Assembly (NCBI RefSeq): GCF_003319095.1
Contig: NZ_QOHI01000007.1
Span: 186,001 to 250,000 of the forward strand
DNA: 64,000 bases
Reading direction: 5' to 3'
Source: Blastococcus sp. TBT05-19
GTDB lineage: Bacteria > Actinomycetota > Actinomycetes > Mycobacteriales > Geodermatophilaceae
Positions 16,658 through 33,343 of the stretch are shown here, piece after piece. The position numbers were made by a program, and so were the translations under genes. The stretch's first letter is position 1. Every line of letters begins with the position of its first letter. The notes under the pieces are model-generated. The model saw only the letters and a program-made list of their open reading frames with translations, did not search any database and had not been told where the DNA came from.

Positions 16658-16673
16658 GTCACCCGTCGGTGAA
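16658..16673. promoter_or_regulatory. Degenerate GTTACC-N4-GGTAAC-like site between thiolase and epimerase
   Basis: GTCACC-CGTC-GGTGAA in the divergent intergenic region keeps the length and most bases of the sites found at ccrA, the 3-hydroxybutyryl-CoA dehydrogenase gene and ecm. The T-to-C and A-to-G changes are symmetric. It is the weakest of the four. Confidence 0.35.
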
Positions 16674-17218: not shown

Positions 17219-17234
17219 GTTACCCATCGGTAAC
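17219..17234. promoter_or_regulatory. Palindromic operator in the ccrA promoter (GTTACC-CATC-GGTAAC)
   Basis: A perfect 6+6 inverted repeat lies 73 bases before the ccrA start. The right half runs into TAACAT (17231-17236), a candidate -10. Near-identical sites lie upstream of the 3-hydroxybutyryl-CoA dehydrogenase gene and ecm. Confidence 0.65.
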
Positions 17235-17307
17235 ATCTGCGCACCCGCACCACCGCACCGCCCTCCGAGCCCGGCCGACGACGGCCGCAGACGACCCGGG
17301 AGTACGC

Positions 17308-18639
17308 GTGAACGAGATCAGGGACGCCATCCTCGCCAACCAGCTGGACGCGCTGGGCGGCCTGGCCGTGCCGGAGTCCTACCGCGCCGTGGTGGTGCGC
17401 AAGGACGAGCAGGACATGTTCGAGGGGGTGGCCACCAAGGACAAGGACCCCCGCAAGTCGCTGCACGTGCAGGAGGTCGCCACCCCGGAGCTGGGCCCGG
17501 GCGAGGCGATCGTGGCCGTCATGGCCTCCTCGGTGAACTACAACACCGTCTGGACGTCGATCTTCGAGCCGGTCTCGACCTTCGGCTTCCTCGAGCGCTA
17601 CGGCCGCGTCTCCGAGCTGACCAAGCGCCACGACCTGCCGTACCACATCGTCGGCTCCGACCTGGCCGGCGTCGTGCTGCGCGTAGGCCCCGGTGTGAAC
17701 AAGTGGAAGCCGGGCGACGAGGTCGTCGCGCACTGCCTCTCGGTGGAGCTCGAGGACCCGGCCGGCCACGACGACACGATGATGGACCCGCAGCAGCGGA
17801 TCTGGGGCTTCGAGACCAACTTCGGCGGCCTCGCCGAGATGGCGCTGGTCAAGAGCAACCAGCTGATGCCGAAGCCGGCGCACCTCTCCTGGGAGGAGGC
17901 CGCTGCCCCCGGCCTGGTCAACTCCACCGCCTACCGCCAGCTGGTCAGCCGCAACGGCGCCCACATGAAGCAGGGCGACACCGTCCTGATCTGGGGCGCC
18001 TCGGGTGGCCTGGGCTCCTACGCCACGCAGATGGCGCTCAACGGCGGCGCGATCCCGGTCTGCGTCGTGAGCAGCCCCGAGAAGGCGGAGATCGTCCGCC
18101 GGATGGGCGCGGAGCTGATCATCGACCGCTCGGCCGAGGGCTACAAGTTCTGGAAGGACGAGAACAACCAGGACCCCAAGGAGTGGCAGCGCCTGGGCAA
18201 GAAGATCCGCGAGCTGACCGGCGGTGAGGACGTCGACATCGTCTTCGAGCACCCGGGCCGCGAGACCTTCGGCGCCTCGGTCTACGTCGCCAAGAAGGGC
18301 GGCACGATCGTCACCTGCGCCTCGACCAGCGGATACATGCACCAGTACGACAACCGGTACCTCTGGATGAACCTGAAGAACATCCTGAGCTCGCACTTCG
18401 CCAACTACAAGGAGGCGTGGGAGGCCAACCGGCTCATCGACAAGGGCCTCATCCACCCGACCCTGTCGAAGGTGTACCCGATGGAGGAGGTCGGCCAGGC
18501 CGCCCTCGACGTCCACAAGAACGCCCACCAGGGCAAGGTCGGCGTCCTGACCCTCGCCCCCGAGGAGGGCCTGGGCGTCACGGACACCGCCAAGCGCGAG
18601 AAGCACGTGGACGCGATCAACCGCTTCCGCGGGGTGTGA
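17308..18639 (+). CDS. ccrA: Crotonyl-CoA carboxylase/reductase
   Basis: This 443-residue zinc-free MDR-family enzyme reductively carboxylates crotonyl-CoA to (2S)-ethylmalonyl-CoA with NADPH and CO2, the signature step of the ethylmalonyl-CoA pathway. All four CO2-pocket residues known from the Kitasatospora enzyme (Asn81, Phe170, Glu171, His365) are found two positions earlier: Asn 79 (VNYNTVW), Phe 168-Glu 169 (WGFETNFGG) and His 363 (LSSHFANYKE). The NADPH loop is WGASGGLGSYA. A leader of about 70 bases contains the operator-like palindrome. A strong 16-bp hairpin follows at 18645-18679, so it is probably transcribed alone. Confidence 0.95.
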   Translation: MNEIRDAILANQLDALGGLAVPESYRAVVVRKDEQDMFEGVATKDKDPRKSLHVQEVATPELGPGEAIVAVMASSVNYNTVWTSIFEPVSTFGFLERYGRVSELTKRHDLPYHIVGSDLAGVVLRVGPGVNKWKPGDEVVAHCLSVELEDPAGHDDTMMDPQQRIWGFETNFGGLAEMALVKSNQLMPKPAHLSWEEAAAPGLVNSTAYRQLVSRNGAHMKQGDTVLIWGASGGLGSYATQMALNGGAIPVCVVSSPEKAEIVRRMGAELIIDRSAEGYKFWKDENNQDPKEWQRLGKKIRELTGGEDVDIVFEHPGRETFGASVYVAKKGGTIVTCASTSGYMHQYDNRYLWMNLKNILSSHFANYKEAWEANRLIDKGLIHPTLSKVYPMEEVGQAALDVHKNAHQGKVGVLTLAPEEGLGVTDTAKREKHVDAINRFRGV

Positions 18640-18644
18640 CCCCT

Positions 18645-18679
18645 CCCGGTGGGGCCGGCGCGTCGCCGGCCCCACCGGG
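18645..18679 (+). terminator. Intrinsic terminator-like hairpin after ccrA
   Basis: A perfect 16-bp stem (arms 18645-18660 and 18664-18679) with a three-base loop starts six bases after the ccrA stop. There is no T tract, which is usual for high-GC actinobacteria. Confidence 0.8.
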
Positions 18680-18780
18680 AACCCCCTGCTCCCCGTGTCG
18701 GCAGGGACGACGGGGGCGGCTGGGATCTACGGTTCCCGGGGGACGGTGACGACGCCTCCCCCTTCTGCGAGGATGAGGAC

Positions 18781-19995
18781 ATGACCGACCCCCGCCGTGA
18801 TCTGCCGATGCACGAGGCGCAGCACTCGTTCGACGTCGTCCTGCGGGGGTACGACCGCAGTCAGGTGGCCGAGACCATCGAGCGGCTCGAGGCGGACTTC
18901 CGCATCGCCCTGGCCGACCGCGACGCCGCCGTGGCCCGCACCGCCGACATGGCCGGCCAGCTCTCCGCCCTGCACGGCGAGGTCGACGCGCTGCGCCGCA
19001 AGGCCGCGACGCAGTCCGCGCCGACGTTCGAGAACATCAGCGAGCGCATCCAGCACATGCTGCAGCTGGCCGAGGAGGAGGCGGGCGAGATCCGCCGCGC
19101 CGCCGAGGCCGACGCCATGGCCGTCCGCGAGCAGACCGCCGCCGAGGAGCGCGCCCTGCTGGAGCGGCACGCCGCCGGTCAGGCCGAGGTCGAGCGCATG
19201 CTCGGCGAGGCCCGCCAGACCGCCGAGCAGATCGCCCAGAAGGCGCAGATCCGCGCCGACGAGCTGGTCGGCAAGGCGCAGGAGCGCGTCGCCCGGCTCG
19301 ACGCCGAGTCGCAGGCCCGCCGCGCGAAGGTCGAGGAGGACTTCGACATCGCGCAGCGCGCCCGTCGCGCCGAGGCCGCCCGGGTCGAGGAGGAGCGCGA
19401 GCGCGTCTCCACCCAGGCCGCCCGCCAGCGCATCTCGGCCGCCGAGCAGCACGCCGCGCAGCTCGTCGCCGAGGCCGAGGCCCGCGCCGAGGCCATCCGC
19501 GACGTGCGCGACGAGCTCACCTCGCGCCTGGTCCAGGCCCGCCGCCTGCTCGACGGCCTGCCCGACCTGAGCGACCGTCCCGAGCCGGCCCGGGACGAGG
19601 CCGCCCGCGGCACCCAGGCCGCGCAGCCCGCCCCGCAGCAGGCGCCGGCCGTCGAGCCGAAGCCCGCCCAGCCGGCTCAGGCCGCTCCGCCGGCCGCTGA
19701 GGTCACGACCGCCGAGCCCGCCACCCAGGCGCCGGCCCAGGTCGCCGGTCAGCAGACCGGTCAGCAGCCGGCGGTCCAGGTGACCCGCGGGGAGAGCGAG
19801 GCCGCCGCGGCGCGCCAGCCCACCCGGCAGGACCCGGCCACCGCCACCTTCCCGGCGGCGCCGCAGCGCTCCGAGGAGCCCGCCACCCGCCAGCTGCCCA
19901 TGCCGCCCCGCCAGGGCGCGACCGGTTCCACCGCGGCGTCGCAGGCCGAGAGCACCCAGACGATCGACCAGCCCGTGGCGCCGGGTCGCTCCTGA
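18781..19995 (+). CDS. DivIVA-like coiled-coil cell-envelope/division protein
   Basis: This 404-residue protein begins with a DivIVA-type segment (FDVVLRGYDRSQVAETIERLEADF). A long continuous Ala/Glu/Arg coiled coil follows (about 60-250), then a disordered Ala/Pro/Gln tail to the end. Such proteins act as polar or septal scaffolds in actinobacteria (Wag31/DivIVA and filament-forming relatives). The start ATG 18781 has GAGGATGAGGA before it, and TACGGT at 18728-18733 is a candidate -10. No enzymatic motif is present. It sits between ccrA and a sortase-like gene with no obvious link to acyl-CoA metabolism. Confidence 0.75.
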   Translation: MTDPRRDLPMHEAQHSFDVVLRGYDRSQVAETIERLEADFRIALADRDAAVARTADMAGQLSALHGEVDALRRKAATQSAPTFENISERIQHMLQLAEEEAGEIRRAAEADAMAVREQTAAEERALLERHAAGQAEVERMLGEARQTAEQIAQKAQIRADELVGKAQERVARLDAESQARRAKVEEDFDIAQRARRAEAARVEEERERVSTQAARQRISAAEQHAAQLVAEAEARAEAIRDVRDELTSRLVQARRLLDGLPDLSDRPEPARDEAARGTQAAQPAPQQAPAVEPKPAQPAQAAPPAAEVTTAEPATQAPAQVAGQQTGQQPAVQVTRGESEAAAARQPTRQDPATATFPAAPQRSEEPATRQLPMPPRQGATGSTAASQAESTQTIDQPVAPGRS

Positions 19996-20024
19996 TCCTC
20001 GCGCCCCGCTCCACCGCAGCCCGC

Positions 20025-21272
20025 GTGCCCACGGCCCGCGGGCTGTCGGCCGTCCTGGCCCTGCTCGTGGCGGTGGGAGGCGCCGTCCTGGTCCCCGCAC
20101 CCGCCCGGGCCGAGGAGCCCGGGCTGCTGCGGGTCGCCCACCTCTCCCCCGACACGCCGGCGGTCGACGTCTCGCTGACGTCCGCCGCCGCGCCGGGCAC
20201 GGTGCTCACCGACCCCGGGCCCGTGGTCGCGGCCGAGCTGGCCTACGGCGCCCTCAGCGAGTACCGGGAGGTCCTCCCCGGCAGCCACGCGGTGAGCATC
20301 CGGGGCGCCGGTTCCGGTTCCGCCCCCGTGCTCTCGGCCCGGGTGGACGTGGCGCCGGGGCAGGTGCGCACCGTCGTCCTCGGCGGGGCGTTCGCCGACC
20401 TCGCTCTCTCCCCCACCGACGACGACCTCTCCCCTCCCCCGGCCGGTACCGCCCGCGTGCGGGTGCTGGCCGCGACGACCGAACCGACGGTGGACGTCTC
20501 GTTCGCCGGAGGCCTCGTACCGGCCTCGGACCTCCGCCCCGGGGAGGCCGGGGAGCCGCTGACCGTCCCCGGTGGGCGGTACCGGGCCTCGGTGACCGGC
20601 GCGGACCGCGAGGTGCCCCTCGACCTCGCCGCCGGCTCGGTGGTCACCCTGCTGGTGCTGGACGCTCCCGGCGGCGGGACGACGCTGCGGCCCGTGGTCG
20701 ACGCCAGCGGCCCGGCCGTGCGGCCCGCGGGTGGCGTGGAGGCCGGCGGCGCCCCCCGGCTGCCGGGGACGGCGCTCACGACGGCGCTCGCCGCGGTCAC
20801 GGGCGCGGGCTCGGCCGCCGTCCGCCTCGGCGAGGAGGCCACCGCGCCGGTGCGCCTGCGACTGCCCTCGGCGGGCGTCGATGCCCCGCTGACCGGGACG
20901 GGCCTCGACGGCGCGGGTGCCCTGGTGCCGCCCGCCGACCCCCTCGTGGCCGGATGGTTCACCGGTGGCCCGCGTCCCGGCGAGCGCGGCCCCGCCGTGG
21001 TCACCGGCCACGTGGACTGGGCCGGTCGCCCGGGAGCGCTGGCCGAGCTGTCCGGAGCCGCCGTGGGCGACGAGGTGGTGGTGGAGCGGGCCGACGGCAC
21101 CGAGACCCGCTTCCGGGTCACCGCCGTCGACCGGTACGCCAAGGACGCGTTCCCCACCGAGCTGGTCTACGGGGCGACCGCCGGGGCCGAGCTGCGGCTG
21201 ATCACCTGCGGCGGCCCGTTCGAGCGGGGCAGCTACCGGGACAACGTCGTCGTCACCGCGCAGGCTTCTTAA
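20025..21272 (+). CDS. Secreted DUF4397-class F sortase fusion protein
   Basis: This 415-residue protein has a signal peptide (MPTARGLSAVLALLVAVGGAVLVPAPARA). Residues about 33-215 look like a DUF4397 beta-sandwich region (LLRVAHLSPDTPAVDVSL, and a second unit RVRVLAATTEPTVDVSF). Residues about 270-415 form a sortase-type cysteine transpeptidase. The catalytic set is complete: His 329 in VTGHVDWAG, Cys 395 in LITCGG, and Arg 405 in SYRDNVVV. Class F sortases are common in actinobacteria and mostly lack assigned substrates. The fusion suggests the DUF4397 part positions the enzyme or its substrate outside the cell. No LPxTG protein is nearby. Its stop overlaps the convergent zinc-binding gene by four bases. 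Confidence 0.82.
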   Translation: MPTARGLSAVLALLVAVGGAVLVPAPARAEEPGLLRVAHLSPDTPAVDVSLTSAAAPGTVLTDPGPVVAAELAYGALSEYREVLPGSHAVSIRGAGSGSAPVLSARVDVAPGQVRTVVLGGAFADLALSPTDDDLSPPPAGTARVRVLAATTEPTVDVSFAGGLVPASDLRPGEAGEPLTVPGGRYRASVTGADREVPLDLAAGSVVTLLVLDAPGGGTTLRPVVDASGPAVRPAGGVEAGGAPRLPGTALTTALAAVTGAGSAAVRLGEEATAPVRLRLPSAGVDAPLTGTGLDGAGALVPPADPLVAGWFTGGPRPGERGPAVVTGHVDWAGRPGALAELSGAAVGDEVVVERADGTETRFRVTAVDRYAKDAFPTELVYGATAGAELRLITCGGPFERGSYRDNVVVTAQAS

Positions 21273-21574
21273 CGGCGGCGGTCGCGGGAGCGCCAGCAGG
21301 TGGTGTGCCAGTGCCGGCGCCAGTCGGCCGCCGACTCGACGTCCCAGGGCTCCAGGTCCGAGTCGCGGGCGTAGGCCGGCCAGGTCACCACGTGCGGCGT
21401 CCCCGGGCGGATCTCCTGGTCGCAGCCGGGACAGCGGTAGGCCTTGCCGGCCGACGAGCCGGTGAGCGCCCGCACCACCCAGTCGCCGTCAGCGGCCTCC
21501 TCGACCGTCTCGACGCGACGAGCCGGCTCCCGACCGGAGGGTCGGGAGCCGGCTCGTGGGCGGCGACGGGGCAC
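21269..21574 (-). CDS. Small putative zinc-binding protein
   Basis: This 101-residue basic protein has the core DWVVRALTGSSAGKAYRCPGCDQEIRPGTPHVVTWP and a C-terminal HWHTTCW. The CPGC pair and the later His/Cys could bind one zinc. It resembles a conserved actinobacterial family often mislabelled ATP/GTP-binding; the function is unknown. GTG 21574 lies three bases after the upstream gene's stop, and the first codons coincide with a 17-bp hairpin, so the true start could be further downstream. It is convergent with the sortase gene (four-base overlap). Confidence 0.6.
   Translation of the reverse strand: MPRRRPRAGSRPSGREPARRVETVEEAADGDWVVRALTGSSAGKAYRCPGCDQEIRPGTPHVVTWPAYARDSDLEPWDVESAADWRRHWHTTCWRSRDRRR
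21519..21556 (-). terminator. Strong 17-bp hairpin after the 3-hydroxybutyryl-CoA dehydrogenase gene
   Basis: Arms 21519-21535 and 21540-21556 pair perfectly around a GGAG loop. It begins 21 bases past the dehydrogenase stop, as expected of a terminator, yet falls inside the first codons of the small zinc-binding gene. It could be a terminator with a later true start for that gene, or a translation/attenuation structure. Confidence 0.6.
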
Positions 21575-21577
21575 CCG

Positions 21578-23359
21578 TCAGCGGCTGGCGTAGTCCCGGA
21601 ACCCGCGGCCGGTCTTGCGACCGAGGTAGCCGGCGGTGACCAGGTGCTCGAGCAGCGGGGCCGGCGCGAAGCCGGGCTCGCGGAACTCGGTGTAGAGCTC
21701 CCGCTCGATGGCCAGCGACACGTCCAGCCCGACGACGTCGAGCAGCTCGAACGGGCCCATCGGGTAGCCGCAGCCGACCTTCATGGCCGCGTCGATGTCG
21801 TCGGCGGTGGCGTAGTGCGCCTCGAGCATCTTCACCGCGTCGTTCAGGTACGGGAAGAGCAGCGCGTTCACGATGAAGCCGGCCCGGTCGGTGCAGGACA
21901 CCGCGTGCTTCTTCAGCTCCGCCGAGACCGCGTGGATCGTGGCGGCGACGTCGGGCGCGGTGGAGATCGTGGAGACGACCTCCACCAGCTTCATCACCTG
22001 CGCCGGGTTGAAGAAGTGCATGCCCACGACGTCGGCCGGGCGGCCGCTGGCCTTGGCGCACTCGATCACCGGGAGGCTGGAGGTGGTCGTGGCGAGCACG
22101 GCACCGGCCTTGGCGATCTCGCCGAGGTTGGCGAACAGCGCCTCCTTGACCGGCAGCGACTCGACGACGGCCTCGATGATCAGGTCGCGGTCGGCCAGGT
22201 CGTCCAGCGAGGTGGTGCCGGTGACCCGGGCGAGGATCTCGTCGCGGGCGGACTCCTCGAGCCGGCCTCGCTGCACCTGCTTCTCCAGCGACTTGGTCAG
22301 GGCCCGGGTTACGGCCTCGACCTTCTCGGCCGCGCGGGCGACGAAGACCACGTCGAACCCGCCCTTGGCGACGACCTCGATGATGCCGGTGGCCATCGTG
22401 CCCGAGCCGACGACGCCCACGGTCCGCACCGGACGGGCGCCCTCGGCGGCACCGCCGGGGGTGGGGGTCTGCGCGTCGTCGACGACCTCGGCGGAGCCGG
22501 CCTCGGCGTAGCTGTAGAAGCCGCGGCCGGACTTCCGGCCGAGCAGGCCTGCGGTCATCATCTGCTTGATGATCGGGCTGGGCGCGTGCAGCCGGTTGCG
22601 CGACTGCTTGTACATCGTGTCGAGGATCTCGTAGGCGGTGTCGATGCCGATGAGGTCCATGAGCGCGAGCGGGCCCATCGGGAGGCCGCAGCCCAGCCGC
22701 ATGGCCGCGTCGATGTCCTCGCGCGAGGCGTAGCGGTTCTCGTACATCGAGACCGCGTGGTTGAGGTAGCCGAACAGCAGCGCGTTGGCGATGAAGCCCG
22801 CGCGGTCACCGATGGTGACGTCGACCTTGCCCAGCCGGTCGGCCAGCGCCTCGACGTCCTCGACCACCGAGGGCTCGGTGACGACGGTCTGCACGACCTC
22901 GACGAGCTTCATGACCGGGGCCGGGTTGAAGAAGTGCATGCCGATGACCTTGCTCGGCCGGCCCGTGACGACCGAGAGCTCGGTGACCGACAGGCTCGAG
23001 GTGTTGGTCGCCAGGATGGTGTCCGGCGGGCAGATCTTGTCGAGCGCGGCGAAGACCTCGGCCTTGAGCTCCATGCGCTCCGGCACGGCCTCGATGACCA
23101 GCTCGGCGTTCGCCAGGTCCTCCAGCGAGTTGCTGAAGCGGATGCGCTCGAAGATCGTGTCCCGCTCGGCGGCGTCCAGCTTGCCGCGGGCCACGGCCCG
23201 GTCGGTGGACTGCTCCACGTGGCCGCGGCCACGTGCCAGTGCCTCGTCGGACACCTCGACCGCGGTGACCGACAGGCCCGCCCGCGCGAGCACCTCCGCG
23301 ATGCCGGCACCCATGGTGCCCAGCCCCACGACGCCGACCTCGTTCAGTTCCCTGGCCAC
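21578..23359 (-). CDS. Duplicated (tandem-fused) 3-hydroxybutyryl-CoA dehydrogenase
   Basis: This 593-residue protein contains two complete 3-hydroxyacyl-CoA dehydrogenase units head to tail. Each has an NAD loop (GLGTMGAGIAEVLA; GSGTMATGIIEVVA), the catalytic His-Glu block (GMHFFNPAPVMKLVEVV; GMHFFNPAQVMKLVEVV), a NALLF segment and a terminal GRKSGRGF/GRKTGRGF signature. A short linker (about residues 290-325) joins them. The start GTG 23359 is preferred because GGGAGA lies seven bases before it; ATG 23374, in frame, lacks a ribosome binding site. The reaction reduces acetoacetyl-CoA to 3-hydroxybutyryl-CoA, or the reverse, matching thiolase and CcrA. The promoter region carries two inverted repeats. 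Confidence 0.9.
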   Translation of the reverse strand: MARELNEVGVVGLGTMGAGIAEVLARAGLSVTAVEVSDEALARGRGHVEQSTDRAVARGKLDAAERDTIFERIRFSNSLEDLANAELVIEAVPERMELKAEVFAALDKICPPDTILATNTSSLSVTELSVVTGRPSKVIGMHFFNPAPVMKLVEVVQTVVTEPSVVEDVEALADRLGKVDVTIGDRAGFIANALLFGYLNHAVSMYENRYASREDIDAAMRLGCGLPMGPLALMDLIGIDTAYEILDTMYKQSRNRLHAPSPIIKQMMTAGLLGRKSGRGFYSYAEAGSAEVVDDAQTPTPGGAAEGARPVRTVGVVGSGTMATGIIEVVAKGGFDVVFVARAAEKVEAVTRALTKSLEKQVQRGRLEESARDEILARVTGTTSLDDLADRDLIIEAVVESLPVKEALFANLGEIAKAGAVLATTTSSLPVIECAKASGRPADVVGMHFFNPAQVMKLVEVVSTISTAPDVAATIHAVSAELKKHAVSCTDRAGFIVNALLFPYLNDAVKMLEAHYATADDIDAAMKVGCGYPMGPFELLDVVGLDVSLAIERELYTEFREPGFAPAPLLEHLVTAGYLGRKTGRGFRDYASR

Positions 23360-23377
23360 GCTGCCATCTCCCATCGC

Positions 23378-23414
23378 CGGTGATCGCGGGCAGTCTCTCA
23401 CCCGGCGATCACCG
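23378..23414. promoter_or_regulatory. 10-bp inverted repeat in the dehydrogenase leader
   Basis: CGGTGATCGC (23378-23387) and GCGATCACCG (23405-23414) are perfect complements separated by 17 bases, just before the coding start. It could be a second operator or a 5'-UTR stem-loop. Confidence 0.45.
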
Positions 23415-23424
23415 CCGCGCGGGG

Positions 23425-23440
23425 GCTACCCGCCGGTAAC
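23425..23440. promoter_or_regulatory. Operator-like site upstream of the dehydrogenase gene
   Basis: Read on the minus strand the site is GTTACC-GGCG-GGTAGC. It is immediately next to the nucS stop and 50-66 bases before the alternative starts of the dehydrogenase gene. It matches the ccrA and ecm sites in length, spacing and 10-11 of 12 arm bases. Confidence 0.6.
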
Positions 23441-24112
23441 TCAGAAGAGGCGCTGGGTGGGGTCGTCGGTCCCCTTGAGGACGGCGTAGTCGACCGTGAC
23501 GCAGTCGATGCCGCGGTCCTGCGCGAGCACCTTCGCCTGCGGCTTGATCTCCTGCGCGGCGAACACGCCCTTCACCGGCGCGAGCAGCGGATCGCGGTTG
23601 AGCAGCTCCAGGTAACGGGTCAGCTGCTCCACGCCGTCGATCTCGCCGCGGCGCTTGATCTCCACCGCGACGACCTTGCCGTCGGCGTCCCGGCAGAGCA
23701 GGTCCACCGGGCCGATCGCCGTCGGGTACTCCCGCCGCACCAGCGTCCACCCCTGCCCGAACGTCTCCACGTGCAGCGCGAGCAGCCGCTGGAGCTCGGC
23801 CTCGACGCCGTCCTTCTGGAGGCCGGGATCGACGCCCAGCTCGTGCGCGTGGTCGTGCAGCACCTCGTCGATGGTGATGATCAGCTGCTCGCCGGCCTTG
23901 TTCGTGACCGTCCAGGTGCCGCTGCCGTCGTCCAGCTGCTCCTCGAGGCGGCAGGGCGGGCTCATCCAGTTCAGCGGCTTGTAGGCCCGGTCGTCGGCGT
24001 GGACGGACACCGAGCCGTCGGCCTTGACCAGCAGGAGACGGGTCGCCAGGGGCAGATGGGCGGTGAGCCGACCGATGTAGTCGACCGAGCAACGAGCGAT
24101 GACCAGACGCAC
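23441..24112 (-). CDS. nucS: Mismatch-specific endonuclease NucS (EndoMS)
   Basis: This 223-residue protein has an N-terminal beta domain ([52 protein letters not shown]) and a C-terminal RecB-like nuclease with [23 protein letters not shown] (catalytic Asp, Glu, Lys). NucS replaces MutS/MutL mismatch repair in actinobacteria by cutting both strands at mismatches. The C-terminal QRLF resembles a beta-clamp-binding tail. Start GTG 24112 gives the family N-terminus (VRLVIA), and TACCGT lies eight bases upstream (leaderless pattern). The mycobacterial orthologue lies in the same wider neighbourhood. Confidence 0.95.
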
Positions 24113-24213
24113 GGGCGCCGACGGTACCGGGCGGGCCGACGGCTCGCGCCGGCCCGGGCTTTTCGGGAAGTCATCGGCTCGCATGTGGTGGCGGAGGCCC
24201 TGCCGGGTCGAGA

Positions 24214-25404
24214 ATGACACCCGTGGAAGAGGGCACCGGTCTCGGCGACGACTGGGTGCACTGGCTCCTCGACGCGGCGCGTGCCCGGCTGGGCATGGAC
24301 GTCGCCTGGGTGTCGCTCTTCACCGAGGGGGACCAGCGGATCACCTCCGCGGTGGGTGACCTCGCGTCGATGAACGTGGTCGAGGGCATGAGCGCCCCGC
24401 TGGAGGGCTCCTACTGCGTGCGCGTGCTGAGCGGCCAGCTGCCACCGGTGGTGACCGGCGCGACCCGCGATCCCCGGACGCGCGACCTCGAGGTCACCGC
24501 CGACCTGAACATCGGCTCCTACGTCGGCGCCCCGGTGCGGGACGCCGACCACCGCCCCGTCGGCATGCTGTGCTGCGTCAGCCGCGGCCCCGGCACGCAC
24601 CTGGACGCCGAGTCGGCACGCACCGTCGAGCTGCTCGCCGACCTCATCAGCGACCACCTGCGCAGCGGGTCCGCCGCGGCCGCGCGCGACCTGGCCGCCC
24701 GGCGCGAACGGGTGCGCTCCTTCCTCGTCCGCGGCGCGGTCGTCACCCACCTCCAGCCGGTCGTGGAGATGGCCACCGGCGCGGTCGTCGGGCACGAGGC
24801 GCTCAGCCGTTTCCCCGACTGGAAGGGCCCCGGCCCGGCGGGCCTGTTCAGCGAGGCCGCCGCCGTCGGGCTCGGGGTGGAGCTGGAGGAGCTCGCCGCG
24901 CGCGCCGCGCTCGAGGTGGCCCGGACGCTCCCGGCCGACCTGACCCTCGCCGTCAACCTCTCCCCCGAGGCGCTGACCTGCGACTCGGTCGTCCAGCTGC
25001 TGCTGGAGCACTGCGACTGCGACCTGGCAGTCGAGATCACCGAGCACAGCCGGATCGACGACTACGCGGCCGTCCTGAGCGCGACCGGGCGGCTGCGCGG
25101 GTCCGGCATCGGGGTGAGCGTGGACGACGCGGGCGCGGGCTACGCGAGCCTGCGGCACATCCTCCGGTTGCGTCCCGACGTCATCAAGCTCGACACCGGC
25201 CTGGTGATGGGGCTGCACGACGACCCCGCCCGCCAGGCGATGACCTCGGCGATGGTCGCCTTCGCCGGCGAGACCGGTGCCCGCCTGGTGGCCGAGGGGG
25301 TCGAGGAGGAGGCCGAGCGGGATGCGCTGCTCGCCCGCGGGGTGCGGTACGGGCAGGGCTACCTCTTCGGCCGGCCGCGCCCGGCGTACGACCTCGTGGC
25401 GTGA
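24214..25404 (+). CDS. GAF-EAL cyclic-di-GMP phosphodiesterase
   Basis: This 396-residue cytoplasmic protein has an N-terminal GAF sensor (about 18-150) and a C-terminal EAL domain (about 165-395). The EAL catalytic set is complete: Glu 195 (HEALSRF), Asn 248 (VNLS), Glu 274 (EITEH), Asp 304-Asp 305 ([11 protein letters not shown]), Lys 325 (IKLD) and Glu 361 (AEGVE), so it should hydrolyse c-di-GMP to pGpG. The DDFGTG loop reads DDAGAG here, a tolerated variant. The GAF ligand is unknown. The stop overlaps the next GTG (GTGA), coupling it to a lipoprotein gene. It is divergent from nucS. GTG 24223 is an alternative start. Confidence 0.88.
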
Positions 25405-26252: not shown

Positions 26253-26255
26253 CGA

Positions 26256-26289
26256 ACGGGCCCGGACCTCCTGGGAGGTCCGGGCCCGT
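26256..26289. terminator. Bidirectional terminator hairpin
   Basis: A 16-bp perfect stem (26256-26271 with 26274-26289) lies between the convergent lipoprotein and symporter genes, four bases after the lipoprotein stop and 13 bases from the symporter stop. Confidence 0.85.
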
Positions 26290-26302
26290 GTCGCGGGGAG
26301 TG

Positions 26303-27661: not shown

Positions 27662-27860
27662 GAGGGAGGGGCCTTTCGAGGAATCGGAACGGGACGACGA
27701 GCGCGGCCGGCGTCAACAGCCGGCGGTCGTCATCCGTCCGAAGTCCAGGGCACGCCGTCGCGTGAGGCCCCACAGGTTCTGCACGAGAGGGTCAATGCGA
27801 GCAGGCCCCGGCCCATGCCGGGTTGTGCTCGGTTTCACCCGGACGCGGGAACCCCGCCGC

Positions 27861-27898
27861 CGTCACGGCCGACCCGGCGTGCACCGCCGGCCGTGACG
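27861..27898 (-). terminator. Terminator-like hairpin after the SnoaL-like gene
   Basis: Arms 27861-27871 and 27888-27898 form an 11-bp perfect stem with a 16-base loop, six bases past the SnoaL-like stop. Confidence 0.6.
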
Positions 27899-27903
27899 CG
27901 ACC

Positions 27904-28290
27904 TCAGGCCGGTGCCGGCGAGAGGTGCTCGTGCACGCCCAGCCAGCGCCCGTCACGGCGCGCGAAGACGATCGTCTCCCGCTCGTGCAGGACGTCCTCG
28001 CCGTCGTTCGTGCGCACCGTCGTCCGGACCCGGTGGGTGAACACGCCGGTCTCGCCGAGGAGCTGGACGACCACGTCGGTGCTCTCGCAGGAGACGACCT
28101 GGAAACCGTCCTCGGCCACCCACCGTGCCCACTCCCGCCGGTACTCCTCGGTCGAGGTGAGCAGCCGGTCGGTGGTGTGGAACAGGAACGTGGCGTCCTC
28201 GGCGAAGCTGCCGAAGTAGGCCTCCAGGTCGCCACGTCCGAAGGCCTGCACGAGTGCCTCCGCGGCTGCCCTGACCTCCGCCTCGACCAT
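27904..28290 (-). CDS. SnoaL/NTF2-like domain protein
   Basis: This 128-residue protein has the cone-shaped NTF2/SnoaL fold signature: AEALVQAFGRGDLEAYFGSFAEDATFLFHTTDRLL at the N-terminus, and TVRTNDGEDVLHERETIVFARRDGRWLGVHEHLS at the end, as in the calcium/calmodulin kinase association-like and SnoaL-like enzymes. It may be a small hydrolase, isomerase or binding protein. ATG 28290 overlaps the transporter stop by one base (TGATG), so it is co-translated with the NCS1 permease and probably acts on the imported compound or its product. Confidence 0.75.
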   Translation of the reverse strand: MVEAEVRAAAEALVQAFGRGDLEAYFGSFAEDATFLFHTTDRLLTSTEEYRREWARWVAEDGFQVVSCESTDVVVQLLGETGVFTHRVRTTVRTNDGEDVLHERETIVFARRDGRWLGVHEHLSPAPA

Positions 28291-29855
28291 CACGCGACCG
28301 GTTCCTGGGGACGGCGACCGGCCCGGTGCACCGAGGCGCGCGGATCGTCGACGACGGGCGCGGCCTCGCCGTCGCTGACCGGGACCCAGCGCGGGCCCTC
28401 GGGGCCGAAGGCGTGGCGGGGCTCCGGGAAGGCGAACAGCAGGGCCAGGTAGATCACGGCCGCCAGGCCGAGGGAGACCGGCAGGCTCACGTCGATGCCG
28501 CCGGCGACCGCGTTGCGGAAGGGCCCCTCGATCAGCGGCGGGTAGTTGGCGAAGAGCAGCCCGGCGATCGCCGAGGGGATCCACGCCGCCATGCCCCGCC
28601 AGTTGACCCCCTCGCTGAACCAGTAGCGCCCACCGGTCCGGCCCTGGTTGAAGACCTGCACGTCCTCGGGCGAGTAGTACCCGCGCCGGACGACGTAGCC
28701 GATGGTCATGATGATCATCCAGGGGGTCGTGCAGATGACGATCGCGCCGATGAAGGCGTTCACGCTGCCCAGCAGGTCGAAGGCCAGGCGGCCGACGAGG
28801 ATGAAGACGAAGGCCAGCGCGCCGATGAACAGCGACGCCTGCACGCGGCTGAGCCGGGGGAAGACCGAGGAGAAGTCCAGCCCCGTGCCGTAGAGCGACG
28901 TCACGCCGGTGGACATGCCGCCGAGGAACGCCACCACGATCAGCAGCACCGCGTACCAGAGCGGCGACGCCTGGATCAGCGCCACCACGTAGTCGGCCTC
29001 TCCGGCGACCAGGGTCGCGGTGCCGACACCGAAGAGGAACGGCACGAGCGTGGCCAGCTGACCGAGGAAGGTGGCGCCCAGCAGCTTCGGGGTGGGCGTG
29101 CCCGCGGGGATGTAGCGCGACCAGTCGCCGAGGAACGCCCCGAAGCTGACCGGGTTCCCCATGACGATCAGCGCCGAGAGGATGAAGGTCGGCCAGAAGC
29201 TGCCCAGCGCGTACGCCTCGGGACCGGGGTCGTAGCCGAAGTCGAACAGCGACGCGTAGGCGACGATGCCGAGCAGCATGAGCACGGTGTTGGCGAGGAC
29301 GACCACCTTGTTCACCAGCAGCATGAACTGGTAGCCGTAGACCACGACGACGATCACCAGCGCTCCGAGGACCGCGTAGATGATCCCGCGGAACAGGTCG
29401 GAGTCCTCCGTGCCGAACAGGCGGGTGGCCGCGCCGACGATCGCGTCGCCGCTGACCCACACCGAGATCGAGTAGAACGCGATCGCCGTCAGCAGCGAGA
29501 GGAACGAGCCGAGCACCCGGCCCCGGACGCCGAAGTGCGCACCGGAGGACACCGCGTTGTTCGTCCCCGTCCGCGGGCCGAAGAGGCCCATCGGCATGAG
29601 GATCAGCGCCCCGACCACGACGCCGACGAGCGTGGCGGCGACGGCCTGGCCCAGCGAGAGCCCCAGTAGGACCGGGAAGGTGCCGAGGATGACCGTCGCG
29701 AACGTGTTGGCGCCGCCGAACTGGATGCGGAACAGGTCGAAGGGCCGCGACGTGCGCTCGGCAGCGGGGATCGTGTCGATCCCGTGCTGCTCGATCTCGG
29801 TGACGCGGGGTCGCCGCGCCTCCGCGGCCGTCCCGGCCACAACGGGTCCGCTCAT
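28290..29855 (-). CDS. NCS1 family nucleobase/cation symporter (cytosine permease-like)
   Basis: This 521-residue, roughly 12-helix membrane protein is of the purine-cytosine permease (NCS1) family. The early motif FDLFRIQFGGANTFATVILGT corresponds to the NCS1 N-terminal signature, followed by GPRTGTNNAVSSGAHFGVRG. NCS1 members import nucleobases, allantoin, hydantoins or thiamine precursors; the substrate is uncertain here. Start ATG 29855 has GGAGG five bases upstream. A promoter (TTGTCT, 18 bases, TAATCT) overlaps a palindromic operator shared with the divergent XRE-cupin gene, which is the likely regulator. The C-terminal tail is hydrophilic. Confidence 0.82.
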   Translation of the reverse strand: MSGPVVAGTAAEARRPRVTEIEQHGIDTIPAAERTSRPFDLFRIQFGGANTFATVILGTFPVLLGLSLGQAVAATLVGVVVGALILMPMGLFGPRTGTNNAVSSGAHFGVRGRVLGSFLSLLTAIAFYSISVWVSGDAIVGAATRLFGTEDSDLFRGIIYAVLGALVIVVVVYGYQFMLLVNKVVVLANTVLMLLGIVAYASLFDFGYDPGPEAYALGSFWPTFILSALIVMGNPVSFGAFLGDWSRYIPAGTPTPKLLGATFLGQLATLVPFLFGVGTATLVAGEADYVVALIQASPLWYAVLLIVVAFLGGMSTGVTSLYGTGLDFSSVFPRLSRVQASLFIGALAFVFILVGRLAFDLLGSVNAFIGAIVICTTPWMIIMTIGYVVRRGYYSPEDVQVFNQGRTGGRYWFSEGVNWRGMAAWIPSAIAGLLFANYPPLIEGPFRNAVAGGIDVSLPVSLGLAAVIYLALLFAFPEPRHAFGPEGPRWVPVSDGEAAPVVDDPRASVHRAGRRPQEPVA

Positions 29856-29901
29856 GTGCACCTCCGGGTGAGGCGGTGGTCCCGACCACCGCAGTGGGCG
29901 A

Positions 29902-29931
29902 AGATTAGGGGCAGAGTTGTCTGGGAGACAA
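29902..29931 (-). promoter_or_regulatory. Promoter of the NCS1 transporter gene
   Basis: Minus-strand TTGTCT (29926-29931) and TAATCT (29902-29907) are 18 bases apart. The -35 lies in the right arm of the operator palindrome, so a bound regulator would block it. Confidence 0.55.
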
Positions 29932-29933
29932 CT
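29915..29933. promoter_or_regulatory. Palindromic operator between NCS1 and XRE-cupin genes
   Basis: AGTTGTC-TGGGA-GACAACT is a perfect 7+7 inverted repeat in the divergent intergenic region. It is the probable binding site of the adjacent XRE-cupin regulator. AAAGTT occurs twice just to its right (29934-29939 and about 29945-29950). Confidence 0.65.
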
Positions 29934-29991
29934 AAAGTTGCCCGAAAGTTTCGTGCGGCATGCTGCTCGTGGACTCGGGAGAGGGGACGAC

Positions 29992-30576
29992 GTGGCCGGA
30001 GAGGTACGACGGCTGGCACGACCGCACGACCCCGCCGAGGCGCTGATCGGCGCCCGGCTGCGGGCGGCACGGCAGGCAGCGGGACTGACCCTCGCGGCGG
30101 TCGCCATCGAGGCGGGGCTCACCAAGGGCTTCCTGAGCCGGCTCGAGCGCGACGAGGTCTCGCCGTCGGTCGCCTCGCTGGTGTCGGTGTGCGGCATCCT
30201 CGGCATCGGGGTCGGGCAGCTGTTCGAGGCGCCCGAGACCTCGCTCGTGCGGGGCGACGAGGCCCCGCCGATCAACTTCGGCAGGCGCGGTCTCCGCGAG
30301 TACCTGCTCACCGCGGGCTCGCAGCGCCACCTGCAGGTGATCCGGTCCCTGGTCGAGCCGGGCGGCGGGAGCGGCCCGGAGCTCTACTCCCTGGCGTGCG
30401 AGGCGGAGTTCGTCTACCTGGTGGCCGGGGAGCTGCGGCTGCTGCTGCCCGGAGATCCGGTGGACCTGACCGCCGGTGACGCCTTCACCATGCCCGGCGC
30501 CACCCCCCACACGTGGCTCAACCCCTCGGCCGACACCGTCGCCGAGGTGCTGTGGGTCCTGAGTCCGGCACCGTGA
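29992..30576 (+). CDS. XRE family regulator with C-terminal cupin
   Basis: This 194-residue regulator has an N-terminal helix-turn-helix (IGARLRAARQAAGLTLAAVAIEAGLTKGFLSRLERDEVSPSVASLVSVCGIL) and a C-terminal cupin beta barrel (EAEFVYLVAGELRLLLPGDPVDLTAGDAFTMPGATPHTW). Such HipB/PuuR-type proteins repress catabolic and transport genes and sense small metabolites through the cupin. GTG 29992, preceded by GAGGGGA, is preferred over an in-frame ATG at 29917 that lies inside the operator palindrome. It is divergent from NCS1 and coupled by GTGA to the cyclase gene, so it probably controls both. Confidence 0.85.
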   Translation: MAGEVRRLARPHDPAEALIGARLRAARQAAGLTLAAVAIEAGLTKGFLSRLERDEVSPSVASLVSVCGILGIGVGQLFEAPETSLVRGDEAPPINFGRRGLREYLLTAGSQRHLQVIRSLVEPGGGSGPELYSLACEAEFVYLVAGELRLLLPGDPVDLTAGDAFTMPGATPHTWLNPSADTVAEVLWVLSPAP

Positions 30577-31259
30577 GCGGCCCCCTGGTCCCGTCGGTGC
30601 GGGGCATCGTCGACCTCTCGCACCCGTTGGACGACGGCACCCCCGTCTACCCCGGGGACCCGGTCGCGCGGATCGAGCCCGCCACGACCATCGAGGAGCA
30701 CGGCTACAACGTCCTGCACGTGCGGATGGGCTCGCAGACCGGCACGCACGTGGACGCCCCCTTCCACTTCCTCGAGGACGGCGCCCGCATCGACGAGCTC
30801 CCCCTGGAGCTGTTCCTCGGCCCGGCGGTCGTCGCAGACCTCCGCGGCCGGGCACCGCGCACCCCGATCACGTGGGCGGACCTGGCGCCGGTCGCCGACC
30901 GCCTCGGGCCCGGGCGCATGCTCCTGCTGCACACCGGCTGGGACGCGCACTGGGGCACCGACGCGTACTTCGCCCACCCGTACCTGGACGGCGACGCAGC
31001 ACAGCGGCTGGTCGACGCCGGCGTCCGCACGATCGGCCTGGACGCGCTGAGCCTCGACGAGACGGTGCTGGACGGCGAGTCGGCGGGCGGGTTCGCCGCG
31101 CACCTCGCCGTCCTCGGCGCCGGGGGCGTGATCGTGGAGAACCTGCGGAACCTGTCCTCCGTCACCTCGGCCGAGCCGGTCGTCAGCGTGCTCCCGCTCC
31201 GGCTCACCGGAGCCGACGGCGCCCCGGTCCGGGCCGTGGCGTTCGACGTCGCCGGCTGA
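30573..31259 (+). CDS. Cyclase/kynurenine formamidase-like hydrolase
   Basis: This 228-residue metal-dependent hydrolase is of the cyclase family. The signature QTGTHVDAPFHF (His 59, Asp 61, His 65) binds the metal, and IVDLSHPLDDGTPVYPGDP opens the protein as in arylformamidases, isatin hydrolases and related enzymes. These open or close amide, lactone or imide bonds. GTG 30573 overlaps the regulator stop (GTGA), placing it in the same unit as the regulator and functionally with the divergent NCS1 transporter. A nucleobase-derived or hydantoin/imide-like substrate is plausible. A 12-bp terminator hairpin follows. Confidence 0.8.
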   Translation: MSGPLVPSVRGIVDLSHPLDDGTPVYPGDPVARIEPATTIEEHGYNVLHVRMGSQTGTHVDAPFHFLEDGARIDELPLELFLGPAVVADLRGRAPRTPITWADLAPVADRLGPGRMLLLHTGWDAHWGTDAYFAHPYLDGDAAQRLVDAGVRTIGLDALSLDETVLDGESAGGFAAHLAVLGAGGVIVENLRNLSSVTSAEPVVSVLPLRLTGADGAPVRAVAFDVAG

Positions 31260-31281
31260 CCCCCCGCCCGGGGGGTCAGCC
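31254..31281. terminator. Bidirectional terminator between cyclase and ecm genes
   Basis: Arms 31254-31265 and 31270-31281 form a perfect 12-bp stem with a GCCC loop. The left arm includes the cyclase stop codon; the structure also lies just past the ecm stop on the other strand. Confidence 0.8.
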
Positions 31282-31289
31282 GCCCGACG

Positions 31290-33308
31290 TCAGGCCGGCT
31301 CCGGCACCAACTCCGGAAGCCCGTTGGCCTCGCGGACGACGTCGACGACCTGGCCCATGATGTCGTTGAGCCCGAAGTCCTTGGGCGTGAACACCCGGGC
31401 GACGCCCTGCTCGCGCAGCCGGCGGGCGTCGCTGTCCGGGATGATCCCGCCGACGACCACCGGGACGTCGTCGAGACCGGCGTCCTTCAGGCCCTGGAGC
31501 ACCGCCGGGACGACCTGGAGGTGCGAGCCCGAGAGCACCGAGAGCCCGACGACGTGCACGTCCTCCTCCACGGCGGCGGAGACGATCTGCGCCGGCGTGA
31601 GGCGGATGCCCTGGTAGATGACCTCGAACCCGGCGTCGCGGGCGCGCACGGCGATCTGCTCGGCGCCGTTGCTGTGCCCGTCGAGCCCCGGCTTGCCGAC
31701 CAGGAAGCGCAGTCGGCCGCCCATCTCCTCACCGGTCGCCCGCACCCGCTCGCGGACCCCGAGGAGGGTCTCGTCGGCCTCGCCGCCACCCGAGGCGGCC
31801 GAGACGCCGGTCGGTGCCCGGTACTCGCCGAAGACCTCGCGCAGCACGCCGGACCACTCCCCCGTCGTGACGCCGGCACGGGCGCACTCCAGGGTCGCGT
31901 GCATCAGGTTGACGTCGCTGCTCGCGGCCTCGCGCAGCGCCTCCAGCGCCTTGTCGGCGGCCTCCTGGTCGCGCTCGGCCCGCCACTTCTTCACGGCCTC
32001 CTGCGCGGCGGCCTCGACGGCCGGGTCGACCGTCATGATCGCGGTGTCGAGGTCGGCGGTGAGCGGGTTGGGCTCGGTGGTGTCGAACTTGTTCACCCCG
32101 ACGACGACGTCCTCGCCGCTCTCCATCCGGCGACGGCGCTCGGCGAGCGAGCCCACCAGCTGGCCCTTCATGTACCCCGACTCGACGGCGGTGACCGCGC
32201 CGCCCATCTCCTGCACCCGGGCGATCTCGGCGCGGGCGCCCTCGAGGATGTCGGCGACCTTCTTCTCCACCACGACCGAGCCGGTGAACAGATCCTCGTA
32301 CTCGAGCAGGTCGGTCTCGTAGGCCAGCACCTGCTGCAGCCGCAGCGACCACTGCTGGTCCCACGGCCGGGGCAGCCCGAGCGCCTCGTTCCAGGCGGGC
32401 AGCTGCACGGCGCGGGCGCGGGAGTCGCGGGACAGCGTGACCGCGAGCATCTCCAGCACGATGCGCTGGACGTTGTTCTCCGGCTGGGCCTCGGTCAGGC
32501 CGAGGGAGTTGACCTGCACGCCGTAGCGGAAGCGGCGGTGCTTGGCGTCCTGGACGCCGTAGCGCTCCTCGGTCAGCTCGTCCCAGAGCTGGGTGAAGGC
32601 GCGCATCTTGCACATCTCCTCGACGAAGCGGACGCCCGCGTTGACGAAGAAGGAGATGCGCGCGACGACCTCGCCGAACTTCTCCTGCGGCACCTGGCCG
32701 GAGTCGCGCACGGAGTCCAGGACGGCGATCGCGGTGCTGATCGCGTAGGCGATCTCCTGCTCCGGCGTCGCCCCGGCCTCCTGCAGGTGGTAGCTGCAGA
32801 TGTTAATCGGGTTCCACTTCGGCATGGTCGTCACCGTGTACGCGACCATGTCGGTGATCAGCCGCATCGACGGAGCCGGCGGGAAGACGTAGGTCCCCCG
32901 CGACAGGTACTCCTTGATGATGTCGTTCTGCGTCGTCCCGGCCAGCTTGCTGACGTCGTGCCCGTGCTCCTCGGCGACGGCCTGGTAGAGCGCCAGCAGC
33001 CACATCGCGGTCGCGTTGATCGTCATCGACGTGTTCATCTCGTCGAGCGGGATGCCGTCGAAGAGCGCGCGCATGTCACCGATGTGCGTGACCGGGACGC
33101 CGACCTTGCCGACCTCGCCGACGGCGAGCTCGTCGTCGGGGTCGTACCCGGTCTGCGTCGGCAGGTCGAAGGCCACCGAGAGACCGGTCTGGCCCTTGGC
33201 CAGGTTCCGGCGGTAGAGGGCGTTGGACTCGGCCGGCGAGGAGTGGCCGGCGTAGGTGCGCATGACCCAGGGACGGTCACGCTCCTCCGGCGATGACGGG
33301 AACGGCAT
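31290..33308 (-). CDS. ecm: Ethylmalonyl-CoA mutase (MeaA/Ecm)
   Basis: This 672-residue single-chain B12 mutase combines an N-terminal TIM-barrel domain (DRPWVMRTYAGHSSPAESNALYRRNLAKGQTGLSVAFDLPTQTGYD) and a C-terminal cobalamin domain with KPGLDGHSNG (lower axial ligand His 545). The barrel keeps Tyr (RTYAGH) and Arg (EYLSRGTY) at the carboxylate-binding positions, so it acts on a dicarboxyl-CoA. Sequence blocks (NTSMTINATAMWLLALYQ, PKWNPINICSYHLQEAGATPEQE) are those of MeaA/Ecm, converting (2R)-ethylmalonyl-CoA to methylsuccinyl-CoA. TACACT lies eight bases before ATG 33308 (leaderless), and a GTTACC-type site overlaps the expected -35. Confidence 0.94.
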   Translation of the reverse strand: MPFPSSPEERDRPWVMRTYAGHSSPAESNALYRRNLAKGQTGLSVAFDLPTQTGYDPDDELAVGEVGKVGVPVTHIGDMRALFDGIPLDEMNTSMTINATAMWLLALYQAVAEEHGHDVSKLAGTTQNDIIKEYLSRGTYVFPPAPSMRLITDMVAYTVTTMPKWNPINICSYHLQEAGATPEQEIAYAISTAIAVLDSVRDSGQVPQEKFGEVVARISFFVNAGVRFVEEMCKMRAFTQLWDELTEERYGVQDAKHRRFRYGVQVNSLGLTEAQPENNVQRIVLEMLAVTLSRDSRARAVQLPAWNEALGLPRPWDQQWSLRLQQVLAYETDLLEYEDLFTGSVVVEKKVADILEGARAEIARVQEMGGAVTAVESGYMKGQLVGSLAERRRRMESGEDVVVGVNKFDTTEPNPLTADLDTAIMTVDPAVEAAAQEAVKKWRAERDQEAADKALEALREAASSDVNLMHATLECARAGVTTGEWSGVLREVFGEYRAPTGVSAASGGGEADETLLGVRERVRATGEEMGGRLRFLVGKPGLDGHSNGAEQIAVRARDAGFEVIYQGIRLTPAQIVSAAVEEDVHVVGLSVLSGSHLQVVPAVLQGLKDAGLDDVPVVVGGIIPDSDARRLREQGVARVFTPKDFGLNDIMGQVVDVVREANGLPELVPEPA

Positions 33309-33327
33309 ACCGGCGGAGTGTAGGGCG

Positions 33328-33343
33328 GTTACCCGCGAGTAGC
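33328..33343. promoter_or_regulatory. Operator-like site in the ecm promoter (GTTACC-CGCG-AGTAGC)
   Basis: The site lies 20-35 bases before the ecm start, over the -35 region implied by TACACT (minus strand, 33317-33322). It differs at only one arm position from the site upstream of the dehydrogenase gene read on its minus strand. Confidence 0.6.

Follow-up and report, generated by a model that had tools for sequence, protein, structure and literature searches.

FasR (Rv3208) of Mycobacterium tuberculosis has been described as the activator of fas-acpS, with three inverted repeats reported at fas, and the DNA in its co-crystal is TACCCGTACGTAGAACTCGCCAGTA (PMC7382501). FdmR (Rv0238; Dong et al. 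2021 PNAS) is reported to be a TetR repressor of fadE5 and of fatty-acid breakdown that responds to long-chain acyl-CoA. AccR of Streptomyces avermitilis is described as a TetR repressor of acyl-CoA genes (accD1A1-hmgL-fadE4, echA8, echA9, and fadE2) with a 16-nt palindrome, GTTAA-N6-TTAAC (PMC10933834). For mycobacteria, McGuire et al. 2012 (PMC3388012) predicted a TAC(YNNNNR)GTA palindrome, with clusters before Rv3229c, Rv3230c, and Rv2524c (fas), in a section that ties the motif to genes upregulated on palmitate. The subject of this study is a set of 16-bp palindromic sites in a 64,000-nucleotide stretch of the Blastococcus sp. TBT05-19 genome (hereafter the window; contig NZ_QOHI01000007.1, our C20:186001-250000, in a genome of 3.92 Mb on 25 contigs). 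The sites stand upstream of genes of the ethylmalonyl-CoA (EMC) pathway and of beta-oxidation, and we consider it probable, from sequence comparison, that they are operators of one regulon read by an ortholog of FasR.

The original prediction placed a shared site at three window genes. All three sites were recovered at exactly those coordinates and strands, with zero mismatches to GTTACCNNNNRGTARC:

17219..17234, plus strand: putative ccrA operator, a perfect palindrome (GTTACC-CATC-GGTAAC), with the start codon 73 bp downstream.
23425..23440, minus strand: putative 3-hydroxyacyl-CoA dehydrogenase operator (GTTACC-GGCG-GGTAGC), flanked by nucS and by the dehydrogenase gene, whose start codon is 65 bp away.
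33328..33343, minus strand: putative ecm operator (GCTACTCGCGGGTAAC on the gene strand), 19 bp from the ATG and directly 5' of a predicted -10.

As a sequence feature, this set of sites is close to certain. When up to two mismatches to GTTACCNNNNRGTARC were allowed, the two strands of the window gave 9 matches, against a mean of 3.27 and a maximum of 8 in shuffled sequence (0 of 100 shuffles reached 9). A scoring matrix was built from eight sites of the genome, the three window sites included. At 10 bits or more, it returned only these three in the 64 kb, in agreement with the earlier remark that no comparable full site lies next to other genes; ccrA, the dehydrogenase gene, and ecm each have a single site, and the next-best match scores 9.7 bits at 63471. 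A degenerate fourth site, claimed between the thiolase and epimerase genes (16658-16673), did not survive scrutiny and was not accepted into the regulon. It scores 6.7 bits, and it is not conserved in 66 of the 80 named ccrA loci, where the best score in the matching stretch has a median of -4.6 (highest, 10.5) versus -5.6 (highest, 4.5) for a control stretch.

The pattern extends to the whole genome. The symmetric consensus GYTACYNNNNRGTARC (GYTACY-N4-RGTARC) occurs at 7 sites versus 0 in the reversed control, and a TAC and a GTA at 6-bp spacing are present in all 7 as well as in all three window sites. A genome-wide scan had been proposed as a check on the original prediction, and its outcome is favorable: given the gene identities set out below, every one of the 7 consensus sites precedes a beta-oxidation or EMC gene. 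The distances to the start codons, which rest on starts chosen by hand, are 73 bp for ccrA, 65 bp for the dehydrogenase gene, 19 bp for ecm, 52 bp for fadA-fadB, 69 bp for etfBA, 171 bp for an etfD-like gene, and 30 bp for mcl. An eighth target is fadE5, with two sites upstream that are each one mismatch off the consensus. A looser search for GTTACC-N4-GGTAAC with up to two mismatches gave 42 matches versus 6 in the control, and the gene surroundings of a part of these 42 were inspected. Matches by an ExeM-like nuclease gene (L021), a WhiB gene (L022), and ABC genes (L020), none of which is a consensus site, were taken as chance and excluded from the regulon.

The three window genes behind the sites are as follows:

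17308..18639, plus strand: ccrA, crotonyl-CoA carboxylase/reductase (TIGR01751, 605 bits against a cutoff of 378.6).
21578..23359, minus strand: two-module 3-hydroxyacyl-CoA dehydrogenase gene (PF02737 and PF00725, two stretches each; in-frame start picked by eye).
31290..33308, minus strand: ecm, a methylmalonyl-CoA-mutase-type enzyme (PF01642 and PF02310).

The longer open reading frame (ORF) of ecm scores 558.7 bits, under the methylmalonyl-CoA mutase equivalog cutoff of 876, although the best PDB matches of its product are methylmalonyl-CoA mutases. It is most likely an ethylmalonyl-CoA mutase, and we use the name Ecm because ccrA is in its company. Outside the window, fadA and fadB were identified by Pfam and etfB by PF01012, and the adjoining gene is named etfA, putatively, from its position and first residues. 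The etfD-like product matches 9OJN, an iron-sulfur-binding reductase, at 805 bits and contains 4Fe-4S and CCG domains such as have been described for mycobacterial EtfD (PMC8593149). The mcl product has a 233-bit match to 5UGR, a malyl-CoA/beta-methylmalyl-CoA lyase, and an acyl-CoA dehydrogenase gene lies near mcl (L149). The fadE5 product is an acyl-CoA dehydrogenase with a full-length 836-bit match to FadE5 structures. At the dehydrogenase gene, nucS, of the mismatch-repair endonuclease type (window positions 23441-24220), has its end right against the site. In one relative (G016), a consensus site (L179:3001-3016) lies about 40 bp before a NucS-like gene instead, with the dehydrogenase start about 1.5 kb off.

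Conservation in relatives, the other check proposed at the outset, also came out in favor of the sites. For ccrA, we used the best 80 of 534 loci found in one scan, drawn from Blastococcus, Geodermatophilus, Modestobacter, Klenkia, Goekera, Aeromicrobium, Mumia, Actinokineospora, Planosporangium, and some metagenome-assembled genomes; those of highest identity (93 to 97%) are nearly all Blastococcus. A site of at least 12 bits lies within 400 bp upstream of ccrA in 77 of these 80 loci. The scores in close relatives are partly circular because the training sites of the matrix include ccrA. The plain consensus is found within the same distance in 51 of the 80, with 55 occurrences in the 720,428 bases that the loci comprise in total. 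The loci without a site are L092, L123, and L136, of which L092 is a second ccrA copy of Blastococcus endophyticus, perhaps a paralog with a different role. A fadE match at 1e-100 was present in 27 of 30 family genomes; 25 of these 27 loci have a site of at least 11 bits, and 22 have two sites, with starts 21 to 26 bp apart. Across 25 genomes, our own and its relatives, the consensus occurs 162 times versus 29 in the control. Some of the relatives' sites precede orthologs of ccrA, fadA, fadE, etfB, etfD, and mcl, one (L192) precedes an AMP-binding, acyl-CoA synthetase-like gene, and others have no pathway neighbor that could be named. It is true that high-GC DNA can yield short palindromes by chance, and the sites might then be accidental or a structural feature of the DNA without a dedicated factor. 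The counts of 7 versus 0 in the genome and 162 versus 29 in the 25 genomes, together with shuffled ccrA upstream regions that reach 12 bits in 5 of 1,600 cases (mononucleotide shuffles) against 77 of 80 observed, already refute this explanation.

Two further features come from the promoters of the window genes, both read from the sequence:

17231..17236, plus strand: predicted -10 of ccrA (TAACAT), overlapping the right half-site of the putative operator.
33317..33322, minus strand: predicted -10 of ecm (TACACT), 5 bp downstream of the putative operator.

We aligned the 74 of the 80 ccrA promoters that have a site of at least 16 bits within 140 bp. Immediately past the palindrome comes A (57%), C (30%), or G (14%), followed by T in all 74, while the mirror positions on the left side show no conservation. 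The hexamer TAAC-N-T that results from the right half-site plus flanking bases is -10-like (TAnnnT) and sits within the ccrA operator. Hexamers of the same type overlap the sites at fadA (TAACTT), etfB (TAACAT), etfD (TAGCCT), and fasR (TAACAT). At ecm, the ATG (start at window position 33308) is only 8 bp past the predicted -10, which suggests that the transcript is leaderless.

A factor occupying the ccrA operator would sit over the promoter, an arrangement that suggests repression. In the mechanism we propose, a dimer of the FasR ortholog, a TetR family protein, would bind GYTACY-N4-RGTARC and repress the beta-oxidation genes (fadE5, fadAB, etfBA, etfD, and the 3-hydroxyacyl-CoA dehydrogenase gene) together with the EMC genes ccrA, ecm, and mcl. 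With the hexamer TAACAT lying within the right half-site at ccrA, the bound factor would block RNA polymerase there. Long-chain acyl-CoA, as it accumulates, would fill the FasR tunnel and FasR would leave the DNA, and this release would switch on fatty-acid breakdown and the acetyl-CoA assimilation route together. The site set, its conservation, the presence of a FasR ortholog, and the conserved -10-like hexamer are computational results. The binding, the repression, and the long-chain acyl-CoA signal are inferences, with FasR biology and promoter geometry as the grounds for a repression that acyl-CoA would release.

The same factor might instead act as an activator, as FasR is described to do at fas-acpS, with the genes on at low acyl-CoA; the double site at fadE5 does recall the repeated sites at fas. 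We regard this as very unlikely, since every one of the 74 aligned ccrA promoters has a -10-like hexamer within its operator and the similar overlaps at fadA, etfB, etfD, and fasR suit repression. It would also make little metabolic sense, as far as one can judge, for catabolism to be off when acyl-CoA is high.

The earlier suggestion, a TetR-type acyl-CoA regulator whose gene lies beyond the window, is consistent with a FasR ortholog identified elsewhere in the genome, whose binding to the sites is putative. There are 34 TetR matches (PF00440) in the genome and none on contig C20, so the observation that the window holds no such regulator was correct. The candidate is the following gene:

C12:429398-429985, minus strand: FasR ortholog (TetR family; NCBI FasR model, 246.3 bits; 6O6P, E value of 2.2e-59).

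The match to 6O6P is to the structure of M. tuberculosis FasR, with which the Blastococcus protein shares an identical recognition helix, VSKPVLYQHF. The naming of the matched PDB entries as FasR follows PMC7382501. In a tree, 30 FasR rows, our own included, form a single clade at 100/99, in which some rows pass the NCBI FasR cutoff and which stands apart from both the rows taken as FdmR and a related group of TetR proteins (group X). The motif SKP[VI][LV]YQHF is present in all 30 ortholog loci, one of those read out being SKPVVYQHF. With numbering by a 20-residue offset that places Phe at 123 and 138, the tunnel or spine residues Leu98, Leu106, Phe123, and Phe138 of M. tuberculosis FasR correspond to L, M, Y, and F in the Blastococcus protein, so that two are kept and two are other large residues. 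A DUF3107 gene adjoins fasR in our genome, and such a neighbor is presumably common to mycobacterial FasR. The co-crystal oligonucleotide, as published, contains both TAC-N6-GTA and AAC-N6-GTA.

FdmR is the other obvious candidate, as papers citing the FdmR work place fadE5 under its control in Mycobacterium marinum, and in genomes of one family (f8) the motif stands before fadE and etfD. As a stand-in for FdmR we used a TetR protein of genome G021 (L237:1414-2037), a putative FdmR on the grounds that its gene is about 8 kb from the fadE site and that Rv0238 lies near fadE5. The stand-in is FasR-like, with the helix ISKPMLYLYY, but in the tree FdmR and FasR rows fall into two distinct clades, at 100/99. 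Five of five family f8 genomes tested, one of them the query's own, contain matches to the stand-in of 237 to 446 bits, and G018 has one of 136.6 bits, whereas none of the 15 genomes of our own genus exceeds 72.5 bits, and in our own genome the best match is FasR itself (71.8 bits, 29% identity). If the FdmR identification holds, FdmR as the factor in Blastococcus is thus largely refuted, and we rate an FdmR ortholog as highly improbable in that role. Within mycobacteria, either FdmR or FasR may read the motif.

Co-occurrence across the class provides a separate line of evidence for the FasR ortholog. We searched 196 class genomes for both FasR and the motif, counting FasR as absent where there was no match at 1e-20 (10 genomes, all of family f47) or where the matches lay only at about 1e-29 to 1e-35 (10 genomes); the remaining genomes matched at 3.6e-50 or better. 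The 176 genomes with FasR hold 930 sites versus 350 in the control (837 versus 350 without the outlier G057), and 5 of them have no site. The 20 genomes without FasR hold 15 sites versus 30, and 12 have none. Absence of sites goes with absence of FasR at a Fisher P value of 1.3e-10, not corrected for kinship. Among families, enrichment is seen in f27 (102 versus 34), f29 (92 versus 25), and f8 (164 versus 71).

Some fasR genes are themselves preceded by sites. In a first set, 6 of 30 loci (L245, L255, L256, L271, L273, and L274) have a site of at least 11 bits (13.7 to 20.5 bits) 62 to 177 bp before the start of the hidden Markov model (HMM) match, and two more sites in this set of 30 lie elsewhere (L250 and L258). 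In a second set, partly picked for sites already seen (G033, G075, and G057 of the same family) and repeating G026 of the first, 8 of 16 loci have a site of 11.4 to 23.2 bits 63 to 194 bp before the HMM start. Our own fasR has a degenerate site close to its start, and a partial form of it, ACCCGTCGGTARCAT, is also seen upstream of fasR in four further genomes of the genus. Autoregulation as a route to the factor in our own genome was dropped, there being no strong site at any of the 34 TetR loci.

It is also conceivable that the regulon is real but is read by another TetR protein of the same genome, either the group X member (C7:517.5-518.1 kb, L039) or the TetR near fadE5 (C10:90.7-91.5 kb). 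Group X is found in several families, and its helix VSKPVVYEHF resembles that of FasR. The eight genomes without FasR whose only FasR-model matches are of about 1e-29 to 1e-35, the range of group X, argue against it with 5 sites versus 13 in the control, although two genomes of the same class, G076 and G091, run the opposite way, their sites exceeding the control. The fadE-side TetR gene (L148:2218-2967) is upstream of the fadE5 double site at a distance of about 1.2 kb that includes a small ORF and a LapA-domain gene; the TetR itself matched no NCBIfam model at 1e-15 and matched PDB entries only distantly. In another genome (G008), a consensus site stands 74 bp before a TetR gene of yet another type, TetR_C_11 (L190:3001-3016). 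None of the 34 TetR loci of our own genome has a site of 10 bits or more, which speaks against these candidates as it does against our own FasR. On balance we consider a different TetR reader unlikely.

Several results weigh against a FasR ortholog that represses these genes. Its score lies under the NCBIfam NF053731 equivalog cutoff (246.3 versus 330 bits), and it is therefore a FasR ortholog that falls outside the mycobacterial equivalog in NCBI's definition. The association across the class is not phylogenetically independent because 10 of the 20 FasR-less genomes belong to family f47. Some FasR-less genomes still have sites (G076, 5 versus 0 in the control; G091, 4 versus 2; and G024 of another genome set, 4 versus 2). 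Conversely, there is little or no enrichment in families f28 (n = 17; 55 versus 45) and f36 (n = 17; 34 versus 25), although FasR is present in every listed genome; FasR presence therefore does not guarantee a large regulon. Two individual genomes with FasR, G152 and G162, likewise show no clear enrichment (4 versus 4 and 5 versus 6); the fas promoter of G152 lacks a site, and that of G162 has one of 13.8 bits. In the first set of fasR loci, 24 of 30 have no upstream site, and in our own genome the fasR form (GGAACC-GCTC-GGTAAC on the gene strand, 11 bp before the start) is weak at 7.0 bits, no TetR locus of the 34, FasR included, reaching 10 bits. With respect to repression, the sites of the dehydrogenase gene, mcl, and fadE show no -10-like overlap, and M. 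tuberculosis FasR is an activator of fas, whereas repression is argued here from geometry alone.

Among the FAS I (fatty acid synthase I) upstream regions of 12 genomes, the four of genus g8, family f8 (L210, L211, L213, and L216), have two to four sites of at least 9 bits near the start, of the forms SCTACT-N4-CGTAAC, GTTACY-N4-CGTAGA, and AGAACT-N4-AGTAAC, which are weaker palindromes than the beta-oxidation sites; g8 is probably Mycobacterium and family f8 Mycobacteriaceae. The g8 repeats agree with the three inverted repeats described for M. tuberculosis FasR. Of the other regions, L208, L209, L218, and L219 have one or two sites, and L212, L214, L215, and L217 have none near. It is possible, though in our judgment the chances fall slightly short of even, that the older and wider role of FasR in Actinomycetes was that of an acyl-CoA-released repressor of beta-oxidation, joined to acetyl-CoA assimilation where the EMC pathway exists, and that FAS I control in mycobacteria was a later recruitment of the same operator.

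Other arrangements of the sites in relatives deserve mention in their own right. Family f8 genomes (L226, L228, L230, and L172) have paired sites 25 bp apart before etfD plus a pair before fadE, for which shared control by FasR and FdmR is possible; these sites raise the question of whether FasR, FdmR, or both would be the reader there. In G019, a consensus site (L188:3001-3016) lies 8 bp before a glycerol-3-phosphate dehydrogenase-like ORF (PF01266 and PF16901), a possible lipid-glycerol target. Three genomes of family f21 (G057, G075, and G033; L340-L345 and L347-L350) carry dispersed copies of an inverted-repeat element, about 69 bp long, that is bounded on both sides by operators of consensus or near-consensus sequence (GTTACTGGTGAGTAGC ... 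GCTACTCACCAGTAAC) with starts 53 bp apart, and G057 has 93 consensus sites in total. This repeat family could be spreading or titrating FasR-type operators.

If FasR does read these sites, one operator would unite the production of acetyl-CoA from fat with the EMC enzymes that assimilate it, and a protein studied for fatty-acid synthesis in M. tuberculosis would have a catabolic regulon in relatives. It would also give a testable factor to a motif layout published without one for mycobacteria in 2012. In the open-licence literature, searched mostly by titles and abstract starts, we found no description of FasR control of EMC genes or of such a regulon in Geodermatophilaceae. The new elements are the beta-oxidation and EMC targets of the motif in Geodermatophilaceae, the -10-like hexamer within the operator, the finding that FasR and the motif tend to co-occur in the class, and the sites upstream of fasR.

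The layout of the motif itself is not new, given the prediction of McGuire et al. (PMC3388012), with which our sites share the TAC-N6-GTA architecture and a location at fatty-acid genes. The motif section of that paper concerns mycobacteria and names neither a factor nor EMC genes. Clusters of two to three sites are characteristic of the FasR operator or TAC-N6-GTA motif; here there are two sites at fadE in 22 of 27 loci and single ones at the window genes. The AccR palindrome, as published, was ruled out, since our GYTAC/GTARC differs from it at the fifth base of each half. From FdmR, the system differs in that the TetR taken as FdmR falls in a separate clade and has no comparable match in the 15 genomes of our own genus searched. 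FasR (Rv3208) is a close counterpart: our TetR falls within its clade with the recognition helix unchanged, and TAC-N6-GTA is also the layout of the co-crystal DNA. The published role of FasR is in activation of synthesis, and its fas-acpS (FAS I) control cannot be matched in our genome, which has no PF08354 match. The Blastococcus sites differ from the fas-acpS operator in that the genes behind them belong to beta-oxidation and the EMC pathway, their palindromes are better, and the one at ccrA coincides with the promoter.

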